DNA from: Chloroflexota bacterium
GTDB lineage: Bacteria > Chloroflexota > Dehalococcoidia > Tepidiformales > Tepidiformaceae
Direction of reading: 5' to 3'
NCBI GenBank assembly: GCA_016191435.1
Contig: JACPOQ010000043.1
Span: 124,001-188,000, forward strand
DNA: 64,000 bases
Shown here piece after piece: positions 49,209 to 56,726 of this stretch; positions within the stretch are counted from its first letter, which is position 1; each line of letters starts with the position of its first letter. The notes beneath the pieces were generated by a model. It saw nothing but the letters and a program-made list of their open reading frames with translations, made no database searches and was not told the origin of the DNA. The translations under genes and the position numbers were made by a program.

Positions 49209-50303
49209 CTACCGTGATTGCGCCCAGGTGGCGGCGAGCGTTTCGAGGAGCGCCGCCGCGTCGCGCATCACGGTCCCGGCGTCGGGTTCGAGGGCCGCGA
49301 GCGTGAGGACGGAGGCGGACGCCGTGTCGGCGCGGCCAGCGAAGACGACGCACGGTTTGCCGTTCGTGCGAGCAAGTTCGAGCACCCGGCCAGTGACTTT
49401 GCCCCGGCGCGACTGGCTATCGAAGCTGCCCTCACCCGTGATGACGAGGTCGGCAGCGGCGAGGCGGGCGGGGAGGTTGGTGGCTTCGGCGATGATGTCG
49501 AAGCCGCTTTCGATGCGCGCGCCGAGAAACGCGACGAGGCCGGCGGCGAGGCCGCCGGCGGCGCCCGCGCCGGGCACGCGGTCCACATCGCGGCCGAGCG
49601 AACGTTTGAGGACCATGGCGTAGCGGGTGAGCGCCGCATCGAGCTGGTCCACCTGCGCCGGCGATGCGCCCTTCTGTGGGCCGTACGTCACCGACGCCCC
49701 GTCCGGGCCCGTGAGCGGGTTCGTGACATCTGTCGCCACCACGATTTCGACGCCGGAAAGGGAGGCGGGCGGCCGCCAATCGATGCGGGCGAGGTCCGCG
49801 AGCGCGGCGCCGCCCGGCGGGAGCGCGCGGCCGGCGCCGTCGCTGAGGAGCGCTCCGAGCGCGCGAGCCATCCCCGCGCCTCCGTCGTTGGTCGCACTGC
49901 CACCGACGCCGACGATGAGCCGCCGCGGGTGGAGCGCGAGCGCGGCGGCGATCAGCTCGCCGACGCCGGCTGTATCGGCGCGCAGCGGGTCGAGCTCGGA
50001 GTCCTGGAGGTGCATAAGGCCGTTCGCCTGAGCGGCTTCGACGACGGCGGTGCGGGAATCACGCAGGGTGATGAAGCGCCCCAGGACACGGCGGCCAAGG
50101 GCGTCGTGGACGGCGGCTGCGTGGGAATCGGCGGGGACGGCCCGCCGGAGGGCATCGATGAACCCGGGACCGCCATCGGAGAGCGGCAGGCGGTCGATCT
50201 GCCAGCCGGGGTGCACGCGAAGGAGCCCGGCGGCGATCGCGTCGGCCGCATCCTCAGCGGCCAGGCTGCCCTTGAACTCCTGGGGCGCGACGAGGATGCG
50301 CAC
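49209..50303 (-). CDS. glxK: Glycerate kinase
   Basis: A 364-residue type I glycerate kinase. Opening VRILVAPQEFKGSL and LPLSDGGPGFIDAL match the family, together with GVGGSATNDGGAGMARALG and VTYGPQKGASPAQ. It phosphorylates D-glycerate, feeding glycolysis (2-phosphoglycerate) or photorespiration-like salvage. GTG start 2 bases after the inositol-phosphatase stop. Confidence 0.93.
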   Translation of the reverse strand: MRILVAPQEFKGSLAAEDAADAIAAGLLRVHPGWQIDRLPLSDGGPGFIDALRRAVPADSHAAAVHDALGRRVLGRFITLRDSRTAVVEAAQANGLMHLQDSELDPLRADTAGVGELIAAALALHPRRLIVGVGGSATNDGGAGMARALGALLSDGAGRALPPGGAALADLARIDWRPPASLSGVEIVVATDVTNPLTGPDGASVTYGPQKGASPAQVDQLDAALTRYAMVLKRSLGRDVDRVPGAGAAGGLAAGLVAFLGARIESGFDIIAEATNLPARLAAADLVITGEGSFDSQSRRGKVTGRVLELARTNGKPCVVFAGRADTASASVLTLAALEPDAGTVMRDAAALLETLAATWAQSR

Positions 50304-50305
50304 GG

Positions 50306-51109
50306 TCAGGCGCGGCTGGCCGCGGCGGCGGCAGCGAACAGGAGCTCGCTGAGGGGCGCGAGCAGCGCGCTTGGAGCGGCAAGCCGCGCACCGTCGAGCT
50401 CACCGCCCGCGAGCTGCGCCGTAACGCCGCCAGCCTCTTCGACGATGAGCGCACCGGCGGCATAGTCCCAGAGTTGCACGCCCCGTTCGTAATAGGCATC
50501 GAGGCGGCCGCAGGCGACCCAACAGTGGTCGAGCGCGGCCGAGCCCCCGCGGCGGATATCGCGGACGCGGGGCACCACGTGGGCGAGGACGTTGACCTGC
50601 GATGTCCGGCGCTCGGCGGAGTAGCCGAAGCCGGTACCGATGAGCGCGCGGGCGAGGTCGCTGGCGGTGGAAACGTGGATGCGAGTGGCATCGAGGAACG
50701 CACCCCCGCCACGCGCGGCCCAGAAGCACTCGTCGTGGACGGCGTCATATACCGCGCCGGCGACGACGGCGCCGTCCAGTTCCGCCGCGACCGAAACGCT
50801 AAACGCCGGGAAGCCGTACAGGAAGTTCGTGGTGCCGTCGAGGGGGTCGATGATCCAGCGGACGCCGGACTGGCTTTCGCGTCCGCCGCCCTCCTCCCCG
50901 AGAATCCCATCGCCGGGCCGCGCCGCGAGGATGCGTCCGATAATCAGCGCTTCGGACTCGCGGTCCACCTCGGTGACCATATCGGTAGCGGTGGACTTGG
51001 TTTCGATCTGCCGGCGCACCTGCCCGGCACTGGAACGGACAAAGCCGCCGGCTTCGAGCGCGACTGCTTTCGCAAGCGTGAGGAGTTCGATCGGCGTTGG
51101 CTGTGGCAC
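50306..51109 (-). CDS. suhB: Inositol monophosphatase family protein
   Basis: About 267 residues with the family metal-binding motifs GEEGGGRES and WIIDPLDGTTNFLYGFP, and WDYAAGALIVEEAGG near the C-terminus. It dephosphorylates inositol-1-phosphate or related phosphates; SuhB-type proteins also bind ribosome assembly factors. The start is uncertain: GTG 51109 is taken, since TTG 51148 would add 13 residues. Two bases separate it from the glycerate kinase start. Confidence 0.88.
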   Translation of the reverse strand: MPQPTPIELLTLAKAVALEAGGFVRSSAGQVRRQIETKSTATDMVTEVDRESEALIIGRILAARPGDGILGEEGGGRESQSGVRWIIDPLDGTTNFLYGFPAFSVSVAAELDGAVVAGAVYDAVHDECFWAARGGGAFLDATRIHVSTASDLARALIGTGFGYSAERRTSQVNVLAHVVPRVRDIRRGGSAALDHCWVACGRLDAYYERGVQLWDYAAGALIVEEAGGVTAQLAGGELDGARLAAPSALLAPLSELLFAAAAAASRA

Positions 51110-51160
51110 GACCGGAGCGTAAACGATCCGTGACCCAGGCGGCGGCAACTCTGCACTCTC

Positions 51161-51664
51161 TCAGGGCCCGAGGATGTCGGCGAGGTGGGCGCGGACGTGG
51201 TCAACGGCGACTTCGCGGAAGACCTGGGCGAGCGGCCCGCTGCGGCCCCCGGAGGACGTGAGCGGGGTTGCGAGCAGGCCATCATCGGCTGCTTCGATGG
51301 CGGCGATGGTCTGTGCGCGATTCGCCGCGAATTCGTTGACGAGATCATCGATGCTGGCGTTCGCGCGTTTCTCGACCTGGCGGGCGTTATAGCCATCGAT
51401 GCCGTCACGGATTTCGCGATTGGGCTTGCCATCGGCGGGTTTGGGGCCGGCGACGGCATCGCGGGCGATGTCGATGAGCCGCGGATACGTCCACTCGATC
51501 GCGGCCACGTGCGCGAGGATTTGCCTCGCGGTCCAGCCGTGTTCGTAGCGGCCCGAAAGCAGGCTGTTCGCGGGCTGCGCGTGCACCGCCGCGACAAACT
51601 CATCGCCCGTCCGGCGAAGCAGCTCGAGCAGCTCCGTTTTCGATGGCGCAAAGGGTTCGGTCAC
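51161..51664 (-). CDS. DinB/mycothiol maleylpyruvate isomerase-like protein
   Basis: A 167-residue four-helix-bundle protein of the DinB family; WTARQILAHVAAIEWTYP is the conserved first helix pair with a potential metal-binding His, and EVAVDHVRAHLADIL gives another His near the end. GTG 51664 with AAGGAGGG directly before it is taken; upstream extension (to 51721) has no homology. Function probably thiol-dependent or metal-binding; undefined. Gap of 51 bases to suhB. Confidence 0.8.
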   Translation of the reverse strand: MTEPFAPSKTELLELLRRTGDEFVAAVHAQPANSLLSGRYEHGWTARQILAHVAAIEWTYPRLIDIARDAVAGPKPADGKPNREIRDGIDGYNARQVEKRANASIDDLVNEFAANRAQTIAAIEAADDGLLATPLTSSGGRSGPLAQVFREVAVDHVRAHLADILGP

Positions 51665-51775
51665 AGGCCCTCCTTCGGCGCCCGTCCACCCGCAACGCGC
51701 GTCCGCCCAATAGTGGTCCATGGCGATACCGTTGCAAACGGCCTATGCCGCGCGCGGCTATGCCACAATTCACAG

Positions 51776-52228
51776 ATGAGTACACGGATGGTCTATGCCT
51801 TTGCCGGTTTCAGCCGGCGGCCGTCGCGGGGTGAACAGGTGATTGCTTTCTTCGTCCGCTGGGCAATCCTCACGGTGGCCGTGTGGGTCGCGGCGCAGTT
51901 GATTAGCGGGATCCACCTCGACGGATGGCGGAGCACGGTCATCGTGGCGCTGATTCTCGGGCTGCTCAATGCGCTCGTGAAGCCGGCCCTGTTCTGGGTC
52001 TCGCTCCCGCTGACGGTCCTCACGCTGGGGCTGTTCCTGCTGGTCCTGAACACTGGAATGCTCGCGCTTACCGCCTGGATCGCGGGGAAGTTCGATTCCA
52101 TCAACTTCACAATCGACGGCTTCTGGGACGCGTTCTGGGGCGCCGTGATCATCTCCGTCGTGTCGTGGGTGCTCGGCTGGTTCATCGACCCCAATAAGGT
52201 CGCGCGCGACCTGCGCCGGCCGATTTAG
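51776..52228 (+). CDS. Phage holin family / DUF-type four-helix membrane protein
   Basis: A 150-residue membrane protein. Four hydrophobic helices (about 24-46, 52-70, 78-98, 117-138) and the ALVKPALFWVSLPLTVLTLGLFLL motif match the phage_holin_4_2 family, common in bacteria without any phage link. Short basic C-terminal tail. ATG start at 51776; an ATG 12 bases on is possible. Its stop overlaps the stop of a small gene on the other strand. Function unknown. Confidence 0.88.
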   Translation: MSTRMVYAFAGFSRRPSRGEQVIAFFVRWAILTVAVWVAAQLISGIHLDGWRSTVIVALILGLLNALVKPALFWVSLPLTVLTLGLFLLVLNTGMLALTAWIAGKFDSINFTIDGFWDAFWGAVIISVVSWVLGWFIDPNKVARDLRRPI

Positions 52229-52392
52229 CGCGCGGCCGGCGGCTTATGGTGCGGCGCTGGCGCGGCGATACCGAGGCGGCGGGCGCGCTTGATCTCGGCG
52301 GCACGCACGGCTGTCAGCAGGGAGCGGCCGCTGACGCGCATGGCGTGGCGGCGCTTCTCCAGCTTGCGTGCGCGCTGCTCCCAGCGGTCCAT
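52225..52392 (-). CDS. Small basic protein, 55 residues
   Basis: Encodes MDRWEQRARKLEKRRHAMRV... with a strongly basic, helical N-terminal half and a Pro/His/Ala C-terminus. AAGGA precedes the ATG by 8 bases, and the frame is coding-like. The end overlaps the stop of the holin-like gene on the opposite strand (three bases shared). I do not recognise a family; it looks like small conserved basic proteins of Chloroflexota. Confidence 0.6.
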   Translation of the reverse strand: MDRWEQRARKLEKRRHAMRVSGRSLLTAVRAAEIKRARRLGIAAPAPHHKPPAAR

Positions 52393-52513
52393 CAGTTGGT
52401 CCTTTGGCGATCTCCCGCCTGGTCCAGTCTAGCAGCGAGGACGCGGCTCGTTGAGGTTAGGGGGCGCCCACTGCATGATCGAGGCCAACCCGCCGCGTGA
52501 AGTTTGGGGTGTG

Positions 52514-53665
52514 ATGGCCGACAATCCGATTCTCGGGCGTCCATTGCTGTCTCGTGTGGGGATGGTCGGCGGGGGGCCAGTGGCGCGGATGACGTACCAG
52601 GCCGGCATCGGGCTGGGATTGTCCATGCGCGTGCTGGCCGAACGCCCGGAAGACCCGGCGGCGCTGGCGGCGGCGGGCGTCGAACTCGGCGAGCCGGCCG
52701 GCCTTGCGGCGCTGGCACGCTTCGCCGATGGTTGCGACGTGGTGACCTTCGCCCACGAAATGGTAGCGGCCGACCGCCTGGAGCAACTGGTCGCGCGCGG
52801 CCATGAGCTTCGGCCCGGCCCGGGCGCGCTGCTGTTTGCACAGGACTTGCGGTACCAGCGGGAGCAGTTTCGCGTGCTCCGGCTGCCCGTGCCCCCGCAC
52901 GCCCCGGTAGCGGCGATCGCGGATGTTGAAGTGTTCGCCCATAACCACGGGTGGCCAGTGGTGCTCAAGGCAGCGCGCGGCCGCGGCATCTGGATCGCGA
53001 GGAACGCAAGCAACGCCGCGGCGGCGTATGCCCAGGCCGGGCCGTCGATGGAGTTGCTCGCCGAGGCATTCGTGCCGATCGAACGGGAGGTGGCCGTGCT
53101 CGTGGCCCGCCGGCCGGGCGGCGAGAGCGTGGTGTATCCCGTGGTCGAGACTGTGCGAGTGGACGGCATGTGCCGGGAGGTGGTGGCGCCCGCGGACATC
53201 GGCCCGCGGCTGACCTCGCAGGCGCGGGAGCTGGCGCTGCGCATCGCGGGGATCGTCGATGCCGTAGGGATTATGGCGCTGGAGCTGTTCCTCGCTGATG
53301 GCGTGCTGCTGATCAACAGGGTGAAGGTGCGGCCGCACAACTCCGGGCACTTCAGCATCGAGGGGTGCGGCACGTCGCAGTTCGAAAACCATCTGCGGGC
53401 GGTGCTCGATTGGCCGCTGGGCGATTCACGGTTGACGGCGCCGGCAGTGGTGGCCCTCGCCGTCGTCGGCGACGAATCATTGACTGATCCGCGCCTGAAC
53501 ATCCGCGAGGCGCTGGCCGTGCCCGGCGTGCACGTACACCTTTACGGCAGCGAGCCCGCCGCGGGGCGGTGGCTCGGGCACGTGACCGCGTTGGGGGATG
53601 ACGCCGCCGAAGTCCGCGCGCGGGTGCATCGGGCGGCGGCGATGCTTCTCGGCGCCAATCGCTAG
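52514..53665 (+). CDS. purK: 5-(carboxyamino)imidazole ribonucleotide synthase, degenerate ATP-grasp
   Basis: A 383-residue PurK homologue. Blocks VGMVGGGPVARM, LAERPED, DVVTFAHEM, LFAQDL and VRPHNSGHFSIEGCGTSQFENHLR match PurK. However two ATP-grasp features depart: the glycine loop after the Lys reads LKAARGRGIWI instead of the TRRGGYDGKGQ type, and the NE pair that holds Mg is N268-R269. Glu257 (ALELF) is kept. PurE follows in 46 bases. It should make N5-CAIR for PurE if active. Confidence 0.85.
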   Translation: MADNPILGRPLLSRVGMVGGGPVARMTYQAGIGLGLSMRVLAERPEDPAALAAAGVELGEPAGLAALARFADGCDVVTFAHEMVAADRLEQLVARGHELRPGPGALLFAQDLRYQREQFRVLRLPVPPHAPVAAIADVEVFAHNHGWPVVLKAARGRGIWIARNASNAAAAYAQAGPSMELLAEAFVPIEREVAVLVARRPGGESVVYPVVETVRVDGMCREVVAPADIGPRLTSQARELALRIAGIVDAVGIMALELFLADGVLLINRVKVRPHNSGHFSIEGCGTSQFENHLRAVLDWPLGDSRLTAPAVVALAVVGDESLTDPRLNIREALAVPGVHVHLYGSEPAAGRWLGHVTALGDDAAEVRARVHRAAAMLLGANR

Positions 53666-53711
53666 TATCTACATCTAAACGAAGCGCTGAGGCGCCGGGG
53701 GGAGGGCAATC

Positions 53712-54212
53712 ATGGTCGCAGATAAGCCGCTGGTGGGCGTAATCATGGGGAGCGATTCCGACGTGGCCGTGATGCGGGCGGCGATGGAGGCGCTGGCCGA
53801 GTTCGGTGTCCCGTGCGAGGTGCGCGTACTCTCGGCGCACCGCACGCCCGGCCTCACGCTGGAATACGCCCAAACCGCGGAGGAGCGCGGACTGCGGGTC
53901 ATCATCGCGGGAGCGGGCGGGGCGGCTCACCTGGCCGGGATCGTTGCCGCGGGCACGCCACTGCCGGTCATCGGTGTGCCGATCCCACTGCAACACACCG
54001 CCGGGCTGGATTCGCTGCTATCGATGGTCCAGATGCCGGCGGGCGTGCCGGTGGCGACGATGGCCATCGGCGGCGCGCGGAATGCCGGGCTCATGGCAGT
54101 CCGCATCCTCGGCGCCGGCGACGACAAGTTGCGCCGGCAGATGGCAGAGTTCCAAGCGTCGCTTGCCAGGGCAGTGATGGACAAGGATTCGAACGTGCGG
54201 GCGCAGTTTTAG
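53712..54212 (+). CDS. purE: 5-(carboxyamino)imidazole ribonucleotide mutase
   Basis: A 166-residue class I PurE with GSDSD near the start, SAHRTP at 42-47 (catalytic His), [10 protein letters not shown] and [20 protein letters not shown]. It rearranges N5-CAIR to CAIR in purine synthesis. GGGGGAGG precedes the ATG. Downstream of purK in one operon. Confidence 0.95.
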
Positions 54213-54250
54213 GAAGCCCGGGTCCTGGGCGTTGAGTCCTTGCGGGGACA

Positions 54251-54275
54251 ACAGAAAGCCCCGCGGTTGCGGGGC
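54251..54275 (-). terminator. Terminator of the small zinc-ribbon gene
   Basis: Minus strand reads GCCCCGC, loop AACC, GCGGGGC, then TTTCTGTTG. It lies 26 bases after the stop at 54301 and may also serve purE from the other side. Confidence 0.65.
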
Positions 54276-54300
54276 TGCGGGGCTGCGCGGTGACTGTGGC

Positions 54301-54474
54301 TCAGGTGGAGACGAGGGCGTTGGAGACGAAGCTATCGGCGCAGCCCGCGCACATCCCATGCGAGATGAGCGGCCCGCCGGGCTGCAGGCACTTGCCACAC
54401 CACGCGCACACCACGGTGAGACGCGCGTCGGTGAGGTCGAAGCCGTGCCTTCTGCTGACTGTCCCGGTTGCCAT
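54301..54474 (-). CDS. Small Cys-rich protein, zinc-ribbon-like (57 residues)
   Basis: MATGTVSRRHGF is followed by VVCAWCGKCL and HGMCAGCADSF, two CxxC-type pairs that could hold one zinc ion. No other protein-coding reading fits this strand, and a terminator follows. Zinc-ribbon proteins of this size are often nucleic-acid-binding or chaperone-like. I do not recognise the family. Confidence 0.55.
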   Translation of the reverse strand: MATGTVSRRHGFDLTDARLTVVCAWCGKCLQPGGPLISHGMCAGCADSFVSNALVST

Positions 54475-54486
54475 GCAGTAATAGTG

Positions 54487-54728
54487 CGGTGGACGGGCAT
54501 TGCAGTTCTATGTCCAAAGGCGCATTCCCTGCAAATTCCCTGCAATTTCAGCCCCGATCCGGTTTACGTGGTTGACAGATCAAGTACGGGCTGAGGCGTG
54601 GCGACACTTTCCGGCGCCGGAGCCTTCGTACGGCCGGGGCGGCGCCGAGGATGTGACACTGGTACTTCCCAATTCGGATTCGCGTCCCTGGCGACATTTT
54701 CCGGCGCTGCGGGCCGGTGGACGGGCAT
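54487..54728. repeat. Cluster of short direct repeats in a 440-base spacer
   Basis: The 14-mer CGGTGGACGGGCAT occurs at 54487 and 54715; ATTCCCTGCAA is tandemly doubled at 54524-54545; and a 21-mer beginning TGGCGACA occurs at 54599 and 54689 (19 of 21 identical, 90 bases apart). No coding frame is convincing from 54475 to 54915. May be what remains of a mobile element or decayed gene. Confidence 0.5.
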
Positions 54729-54915
54729 GCCCGGGGGTGGACATCACGGGGTCCGTGGGGCGCCGGCGGGTTAACGGCCCTGTAACGCGCCGCGTGGCTG
54801 CGAGTTAACGGCATTTGCGGATCTGCAACACTTTGGCCACCAGAAGTACGCGCCACGTAACGCTCCGGCGGCGATGCTCGAGCCACCGCCGCGACTACGG
54901 CACGGAGGATTGGCT

Positions 54916-55122
54916 ATGACCGCAATCAGCGCACTTGGGCTTCGTGAGATCCGCCGCGACCGCGGGGTGATGCACATCGCCGACCGCGAATCGGAGCTGA
55001 AAATGCTCGAGTCCTACCGGGATCGGCTCGCCACCGAGCTGGCAGAGGTCGAAAAGGAGCTTGCCCAACTGGCGCGCTTAAACCCCGTCCTGGCGGACGA
55101 TTTCGCTGGCTGCGCGCGTTAG
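54916..55122 (+). CDS. Small hypothetical protein, 68 residues
   Basis: MTAISALGLREIRRDRG is followed by a helical, charged stretch (ADRESELKMLESYRDRLATE...), likely a coiled coil. GGAGG stands 7 bases before the ATG. Its end overlaps tsaC by 45 bases on the other strand. No known family. Confidence 0.55.
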   Translation: MTAISALGLREIRRDRGVMHIADRESELKMLESYRDRLATELAEVEKELAQLARLNPVLADDFAGCAR

Positions 55123-56142
55123 GCGGTCATGCACCGCGCGTGCGAGGCCGGCACTTCCCGGTTGGGCCACGAACACTTCGCCTGCGCCACGCTCATCGAG
55201 TGAGCGAATCGCGGCGTACAGCCGCGCGGCGATGGTCTCGATGTCGCCTTCGTTCCCGAGCACCTCGACCAGCACGCCCGGCGGCGGAACGGGGGCGGCA
55301 GCGCTGCCCAGGGTCAATAGCTGGCCGACCGTGACTCCACGGGCGATGGCTTCGCCGGTGCGACGGCGCATTTCGGCTGCCGCCCAGGGGCTTTCGCCGA
55401 CGAGATACGTCAGGTGCGCTCGCGGGGCGTAGTGCCTGTCGAGCATGCCGGGCGCGCGCACGTCGGCGTCGACCGCCGGCGGCGGGCCGAACGCCACTTC
55501 GCCGATGACTGCAACAATCGCCTCGACCGGGATCGCCCCCGGGCGCAGCAGCCGTGGAGGCGAGGAGCAGAGATCGAGCACCGTTGATTCGACGCCGACG
55601 GTCGCCGGGCCGCCATCGAGGATGAGGTCGATGCGGCCGTCGAGGTCATCGCGGACATGGGCAGCGGTCGTCGCGCTCGTGTGCATGAAGCGATTGGCGC
55701 TGGGGGCGGCGATGGGTACACCGGCCGCCCGGATCACTGCCAGGGCGACGGCGTGCGACGGCATCCGCACCGCAACGGTGTCGAGCCCGGCGCTGACGGC
55801 GGGCGCGACGGCCGGCCCGCGAGGGACGACTAGCGTCAGCGGACCCGGCCAGAACCGCGCCGCGAGCTGGCCGGTGAGGGGCGGCAGCCGAGCAGCGACA
55901 GCGTCGAGGTCTTCGACTGCGGCGATGTGGACGATGAGCGGATCGTGGGCCGCCCGCTCTTTGGCCGCGAAGATGCGAAGGACAGCGGCCTGGTCGAGGG
56001 CGTTCGCACCGAGGCCGTAGACGGTTTCGGTGGGAAATGCCACGAGGCCGCCGGCGCGGATGATGCTGGCCGCCCGCGCCACGGTGGCCGGGTCCGGGTG
56101 TACCGGGTCGATTGCAAGGATGGGTGTGCGTTGGGCAGCCAG
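55078..56142 (-). CDS. tsaC: L-threonylcarbamoyladenylate synthase (Sua5-type)
   Basis: About 354 residues. Sua5/YciO core: RAGGLVAFPTETVYGLGANALD, KERAAHDPLIVHI, FWPGPLTLVVP, TVAVRMPSHAVA and PIAAPSANRFMHTSAT, with VGVESTVLDL. After a linker HYAPRAHLTYLVG starts the second, Sua5-only domain. It makes threonylcarbamoyl-AMP for t6A. No normal start codon precedes the conserved segment TPILAIDPVHP; the best candidate is CTG at 56142 with GAGGA 5 bases before. An in-frame TTG at 56262 lacks a ribosome site. Confidence 0.9.
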   Translation of the reverse strand: MAAQRTPILAIDPVHPDPATVARAASIIRAGGLVAFPTETVYGLGANALDQAAVLRIFAAKERAAHDPLIVHIAAVEDLDAVAARLPPLTGQLAARFWPGPLTLVVPRGPAVAPAVSAGLDTVAVRMPSHAVALAVIRAAGVPIAAPSANRFMHTSATTAAHVRDDLDGRIDLILDGGPATVGVESTVLDLCSSPPRLLRPGAIPVEAIVAVIGEVAFGPPPAVDADVRAPGMLDRHYAPRAHLTYLVGESPWAAAEMRRRTGEAIARGVTVGQLLTLGSAAAPVPPPGVLVEVLGNEGDIETIAARLYAAIRSLDERGAGEVFVAQPGSAGLARAVHDRLTRAASEIVRQDGV

Positions 56143-56726
56143 GGCGATCCTCGGGGGCTGAATCGCTATCAGAATAGCCCGTCGTTCCCATCGGTGGACG
56201 GAACCACCGGTCGAGGCGCTGCGATCGGCGAGCGAACTCGAACTGCGTGGCGGTCGCTTCAACCGACCGTGGTTGCCTTCAACGGTGGCAGGCCGGGGCG
56301 GGCAGAGTCCGCGGCGGCGCGATCAGCGGCGTTCGGGTCCGCGCACCTGACCGTTGGTGCTGCGTATCTGTGAGGGTACGGCACGCTCCTCGCTCGGGAT
56401 CGAGCTCCTGGCCCGGGGGCATCTGCGAATAAGAGAGCTCTTAGAGCGTGTGACCAGGGGACCAAAGTGTAGTTGCCGTCACAGACGCCACAGTTTTGTA
56501 AGGGTACGGGAGATCCATAGCTGGCCGGCGTTATGCCTCCGGACGATCCCGGCCCGAATAATCGGGGTGCCGCCAAGTTGGCGTCGGGCCATACCGTTCT
56601 GGACAGGAGCGCAAGGGTCCTGCCGTCCGGGTGGCAGCGATGCCAGGCACGCGCGGAATCCCCTCTCCGCGCGTCCGCGAGGCCGGGCCCCACTCCCGGC
56701 CTCGCGGAATAATCCCCAGCCACGGC
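56143..56726. other. 584-base spacer without a recognisable gene
   Basis: Between the AarF kinase end and tsaC start. It contains a repeated GTAAGGGTACGG/GTGAGGGTACGG pair (56370 and 56495) and an inverted repeat TAAGAG-AG-CTCTTA. Open frames on both strands read as Arg/Pro/Gly-rich and have no family features. Confidence 0.4.

Follow-up and report, generated by a model that had tools for sequence, protein, structure and literature searches.

The window analysed here, a stretch of 64,000 nucleotides from a bacterium of the Chloroflexota, contains an ORF recognizable as purK in front of purE, and the locus raises the question of whether this PurK still makes N5-CAIR for its neighbour and, if not, how CAIR is obtained. 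An earlier note on this DNA had described an altered Gly-rich loop, an NR pair in place of NE and a retained RPHNSGH block. All three were found: the loop reads LKAARG-RGIWI without GYDG and N268-R269 stands in place of N-E, both in the translation and in an alignment to 15 relatives, and the RPHNSGH block is kept. This observation was confirmed, and it was shown to be understated, as further residues are changed (Table 1).

Table 1. Positions of the features of the purK-purE region in the window, with the evidence for each.
Feature	Position	Strand	Description	Basis
purK ORF	52514..53665	+	383 aa, PurK fold with dismantled active site	translation, profile search, alignment, predicted structure
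PurK codon 22	52577..52579	+	Pro; other full PurK rows not blank at this column have Gln in 79/80 (E. coli Q11, contact to AIR)	alignment; role from PMC3261824
PurK codons 155-156	52976..52981	+	in-frame loss of 4 residues in the ATP loop, including E. coli D127 (proposed base)	alignment
PurK codons 269-271	53318..53326	+	R-V-K; E-x-A in other full rows (E. coli E238, A240)	alignment
PurK codon 316	53459..53461	+	Ala; Asn in 83/83 other full rows	alignment
PurK codons 346-353	53549..53572	+	S346, A349, R352, W353 at E. coli K307, R310, R313, K314	alignment
purE	53712..54212	+	166 aa, class I type	profile search, similarity
PurE residue 49	53856..53858	+	Thr (E. coli L51)	PurE alignment, 130 genomes
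PurE residue 77	53940..53942	+	Ile (E. coli M79)	PurE alignment, 130 genomes
Presumed Sua5-like gene	55078..56262	-	convergent with purE	arrangement also in PurK-less G010

By sequence and fold, the protein belongs to the PurK family. It scored 361.4 bits against NF004680 (cut-off 327) and 297.5 bits against TIGR01161, the latter below the cut-off of 318.4. The AlphaFold2 model showed a mean pLDDT of 91.3, and its closest structure matches (VIA-align) were PurK structures with Z up to 47 (35–37 for E. coli PurK); the fold is predicted to be complete. Both VLKAARGRGIWIA and LINRVKVRPHNSGH were found in place in the translation of 52514–53665, no stop or frameshift was present in the 383 codons, and the codon-position GC of 0.78/0.49/0.85 has the pattern of a gene. 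Compared with known PurK, the N5-CAIR synthetase (TIGR01161, NF004680; PDB 3eth, 3ax6 and 3k5h), the window PurK shares the full predicted fold with most of the structural core, the RPHNSGH block and the operon position before purE, but differs in that a segment of the ATP loop, the proposed base, one presumed Mg ligand and three of the four AIR contacts are lost.

In E. coli PurK, Q11, K307, R313 and K314 contact AIR (PMC3261824 section 11, citing Thoden and coworkers), whereas D127 is the proposed base, R80 a contact to the ATP phosphate, and K120 and E153 contacts to adenine (PMC3261824 section 11). In the window PurK, Q11, G124-D127, E238, K307, R310 and K314 (E. coli numbering) were found to be lost, leaving R313 as the one AIR contact kept, and Leu is found at the position of R80; K120, E153, E226, R242, H244, N245 and H248 are retained besides R313. 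The loss of GYDG appears as a clean gap of four residues relative to the 15 relatives, including a genome of the same genus at about 61–62% identity. G, Y and D of this loop are present in 83/83 other full PurK rows, and among 87 distinct rows the loop is missing from the window PurK only, apart from one row that is blank there. Residue 269 corresponds to E. coli E238, which we take to be the second Mg ligand; it is Glu in 86 of the 87 distinct rows and Arg in the window alone, which does not bear out the possibility that the Arg variant is common in active PurK of this phylum. The changes not described previously are Q22P, A271K, N316A, K346S and K353W; K307 is conserved in 82/83 and K314 in 83/83 other full rows. 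Codon 269 is AGG and codon 353 is TGG, at least two substitutions away from any Glu codon and any Lys codon, respectively, so that single base-call errors do not explain these changes. As judged from the aligned residues, the ATP/Mg end and the AIR end of the window PurK are both damaged, from which a loss of N5-CAIR synthesis would follow.

The extent of these losses was compared in two sets of PurK sequences. A profile alignment of 92 rows contained 87 distinct rows, and 84 full rows were left when the partial sequences L304, L315 and L311 had been dropped; these comprised genomes of the same class, seven loci from named genomes and E. coli. The window PurK deviated at 7 of the 23 columns that were invariant in the other 83 rows (G, Y, D, E238, A240, N and K314), compared to 3 for E. 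coli and 0 or 1 for all others (median 0), and with a 97% threshold it deviated at 10 columns, the next row at 6. A smaller set consisted of 48 rows, from which the bad picks and duplicates L085, L107, L027, L098, L106 and L108 had been left out and in which L097 is a row with a wrong start. Here 32 columns were invariant in the other 47 rows, and the window PurK departed from 9 of them (next 3, median 0); with a 95% threshold it departed from 12 of 44 (next 6). By both alignments, the losses in the window PurK exceed chance. A second genome with the same changes was not found among the 87 PurK rows or in a search of 400 genomes of the phylum.

CAIR is still needed in this genome, since SAICAR synthetase (PurC, two matches) and PurH are both present. 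The two PurC matches lie at C40:356856-357605 and C27:296328-297059 of the window genome (G000) and possibly result from its 4.5% contamination; one PurC was found in five of the six relatives searched and none in G012.

The purE gene starts 46 bases after the end of purK, and its product scored 209.5 bits against TIGR01162 (cut-off 149.6). The closest solved relatives were PurE mutases, with E-values down to 5.9e-57, compared to 1.9e-12 for 3rg8, which we take to be the class II PurE of Treponema denticola. The window PurE is thus class I by overall sequence similarity. A conversion to class II was rejected, as the overall sequence is nearest to the solved PurE mutases and far above 3rg8; the earlier suggestion that PurE would work without N5-CAIR in the manner of class II enzymes was therefore not right in this detail. 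With class II PurE/AIR carboxylase (T. denticola PurE, animal PAICS), the window PurE would share the formation of CAIR without PurK, but it differs in being class I in overall sequence.

In a sample of 393 genomes of the class, PurE was detected in 345 (E ≤ 1e-30) and the PurK C-terminal domain in 77, and most of the sampled genomes appear to make do without PurK. PurE was compared in 130 genomes: the window genome, 75 PurK-bearing genomes and 54 without detected PurK. The sequences were taken from 30 loci and from 100 among the matches listed, and the PurK-bearing G378 was left out. Absence of PurK in the 54 means no match in the PurK_C search of metagenome-assembled genomes of varied completeness; G103 and G165, neither of which is among the 54, show that a PurK match can escape this search. 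Within the class, PurK-bearing and PurK-less genomes were best told apart by two PurE sites, which correspond to residues 51 and 79 of E. coli PurE. At the M79 site, Met was found in 75/75 PurK-bearing genomes, whereas the 54 without detected PurK included 42 with Val, 10 with Ala and 2 with Met (p 3e-34 by Fisher's test, which ignores kinship). For the two Met rows, G263 and G078, the contig starts 118 and 296 bases away; in the related genomes G271 and G037 purK is located on this side, so that it may simply be cut off in G263 and G078. At the L51 site, Met, Leu or Val was found in 75/75 PurK-bearing genomes, compared to Ala in 23, Val in 14, Thr in 13, Leu in 3 and Met in 1 of the 54. The window PurE is shifted at both sites. 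Another change, P75A, was not informative, as Ala is present in 1/75 PurK-bearing and 3/54 PurK-less rows. The residues at the L51 and M79 sites are of the type seen in relatives without detected PurK and support the earlier proposal that PurE would work without enzyme-made N5-CAIR, although changes in the PurE sequence do not prove direct carboxylation.

On the PurE tree of 130 rows, presence of PurK changed nine times, at least six of these by supported branches, which shows that the PurE residue pattern is not that of one clade. Within a PurK-bearing group, the window PurE clustered with that of the PurK-less genomes G003, G005 and G010 (95/83). This grouping dissolved once the discriminating stretches were removed, so that a common origin with the PurK-less PurE is supported in the full tree but not in the reduced one. 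An AlaS tree, in which the G013 row is a wrong ORF, placed the window genome together with G001, G010 and G017 (84/99), their order being unresolved. For rpoB no match was found in G001, G017, G003 and G012, and it was not used.

Related genomes showed two other organizations of the region. An HTH ORF followed by purK-purE was found in G001 (same genus) and G017 and, from coordinates, also in G091, whereas in G003, G005, G010 and G012 purE comes immediately after the HTH ORF; PurK was not detected elsewhere in these four genomes (completeness 77–96%). Three states, namely HTH-purK-purE, a degenerate purK and HTH-purE, are present side by side in one family. The HTH protein is a conserved protein of about 100 aa (WTFLTNHAHV...), located upstream of purK or purE in loci L065 to L070, and it may be a local regulator. 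Of 24 genomes searched, 15 had a match to it at E ≤ 0.001, and the window genome was not one of them. In the window, 285 bases (52229–52513) separate purK from the upstream ORF on the + strand, and no remnant of the HTH ORF was found near purK by tblastn of one HTH sequence against 50001–56000 (E ≤ 10).

Taken as a whole, these results make it likely that the window PurK is inactive for N5-CAIR synthesis, that PurE alone makes CAIR and that the genome is an intermediate in the loss of purK. The earlier suggestion that PurK activity may be lost is well supported by the alignments, in which the ATP loop, the presumed Mg ligand, AIR contacts and the proposed base are gone. CAIR would then be made by the neighbouring PurE from AIR and CO2/bicarbonate or from spontaneously formed N5-CAIR, and by synteny the genome would stand between the HTH-purK-purE and the HTH-purE relatives, with purK either maintained by selection as a pseudoenzyme or already beginning to be lost. 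Against this reading, K152, E184, E192, E257, R273, H275, N276, H279 and R352 (window numbering) are kept, the grouping of PurE with PurK-less relatives depends on the discriminating stretches, and at 89.8% completeness an intact purK could be missing from the assembly.

The two forms in which purK may survive are sub-readings of this reading and not its competitors. Selection on purK may have ended recently, the frame being open by chance, and we give this a limited though real probability. Loss of invariant residues, deletion of the loop and related genomes without purK fit such a plain pseudogene, and in neutral simulations with 21% of residues changed (300 runs each) the frame stayed free of stops in 5%, 20% and 44% of runs for mutational GC of 0.5, 0.7 and 0.9; an open frame alone is thus weak evidence against recent decay. 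The absence of any stop or frameshift and the gene-like codon-position GC speak against it. So does the rate of change at moderately conserved sites: at sites with 70–90% conservation the window PurK was changed in 4/42, and the values for seven relatives, 2 to 14 of 40–44, include this rate. The contrast between loss at invariant and at 70–90% conserved sites (9/32 versus 4/42) was not significant (p = 0.06; 7/30 and p = 0.18 with the deletion counted once). In a codon model (9 taxa, 366 codons), omega on the window branch was 0.04 and neutrality of the whole branch was rejected (2dlnL 51.9), although synonymous change was saturated, the length of the window branch ran into its bound and the branch includes time before the loss. 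Giving the window branch its own omega did not improve the fit significantly over a single omega (2dlnL 1.5), so relaxed selection was not shown by this test.

Alternatively, the protein may be a repurposed pseudoenzyme under selection that, for example, partners or regulates PurE or binds AIR, CAIR or a nucleotide, with Arg269 and Lys271 in place of Mg. We put this forward tentatively. It is consistent with the intact predicted fold (mean pLDDT 91, Z up to 47) and frame, the retained adenine contacts K152 and E184 and the new basic residues at the metal site, but close relatives manage without purK, and with these changes found in a single genome, a conserved new function cannot be shown.

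Outside the reading of an inactive PurK beside an independent PurE, an intact purK might be located in the missing tenth of the genome, the window copy being a spare. The second purK that the earlier note had proposed to look for was not found by profile search in the window genome: other ATP-grasp matches reached at most 40.2 bits to PF02222 compared to 143.7 for the window purK, and the only other TIGR01161 match listed scored 28.8 bits. The completeness of 89.8% leaves room for such a gene, but the degenerate purK is placed directly before purE like purK in G001 and G017, and PurE is without the Met that is kept by 75/75 PurK-bearing relatives; we consider a spare copy quite unlikely. A PurK still active with altered nucleotide or metal use is highly improbable, since, although the RPHNSGH block and the greater part of the fold are retained, D127 is deleted, Q11, K307 and K314 are lost and PurE carries residues of the PurK-less type. 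As the AIR site, too, is damaged, the new nucleotide preference proposed earlier finds no support.

Class I-like PurE without PurK has been described in archaea, i.e., methanogens, Desulfurococcales and some Thermococci (PMC3261824), and high CO2, spontaneous N5-CAIR and an unknown enzyme have been offered as explanations (PMC3261824 section 11). With high bicarbonate, E. coli PurE can convert AIR, and a purK deletion is rescued when PurE is overexpressed (PMC3261824 section 11). The window shares with these archaea a PurE of class I sequence that would have to function without PurK, but differs in being from a bacterium, in the degenerate purK adjoining purE and in PurE substitutions that track the absence of PurK in the class. 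Searches of open-access papers gave no report of the Met79 pattern, of a PurK pseudoenzyme or of a degenerate PurK retained next to PurE. The working of class I PurE without PurK is a question for archaea and for much of this bacterial class, and a dismantled purK beside a doubly substituted PurE, with relatives in both end states, offers enzyme pairs and single residues to test. Besides, a purK annotated by a family model does not in itself prove that the ATP-using route operates.

As a testable proposal at residue level for how PurE becomes independent of PurK, which we regard as speculative, Met79 together with residue 51 could act as the switch that makes class I PurE dependent on PurK. 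With a smaller or branched residue in place of Met79, PurE would become a PurK-independent AIR carboxylase, a change that would have occurred repeatedly in Dehalococcoidia, and the window would represent the step just after, with PurK turned into a pseudoenzyme before loss of the gene.

The search of 400 genomes of the phylum gave 153 PurK matches at E ≤ 1e-40, of which 147 reached the family cut-off. The six below it were G625 at a contig edge, G662 split over two frames, G450 with an insertion, the window, G103 and G165. The matches in G103 and G165 (same class, 96% complete; E 2e-51 and 1.5e-56) are without a PurK_C match and are possibly other broken or split PurKs. In nine PurK rows of this search, the GYDG loop was found by pattern in seven (the exceptions were L325 and L329), and a pattern for the Glu region gave no match in the same nine rows. 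The G450 PurK (L324), from another lineage of the phylum, contains an insertion of about 120 aa, made up of a tandem repeat of about 27 aa, shortly before the GYDG loop, and both this loop and the DK...RK stretch are kept.
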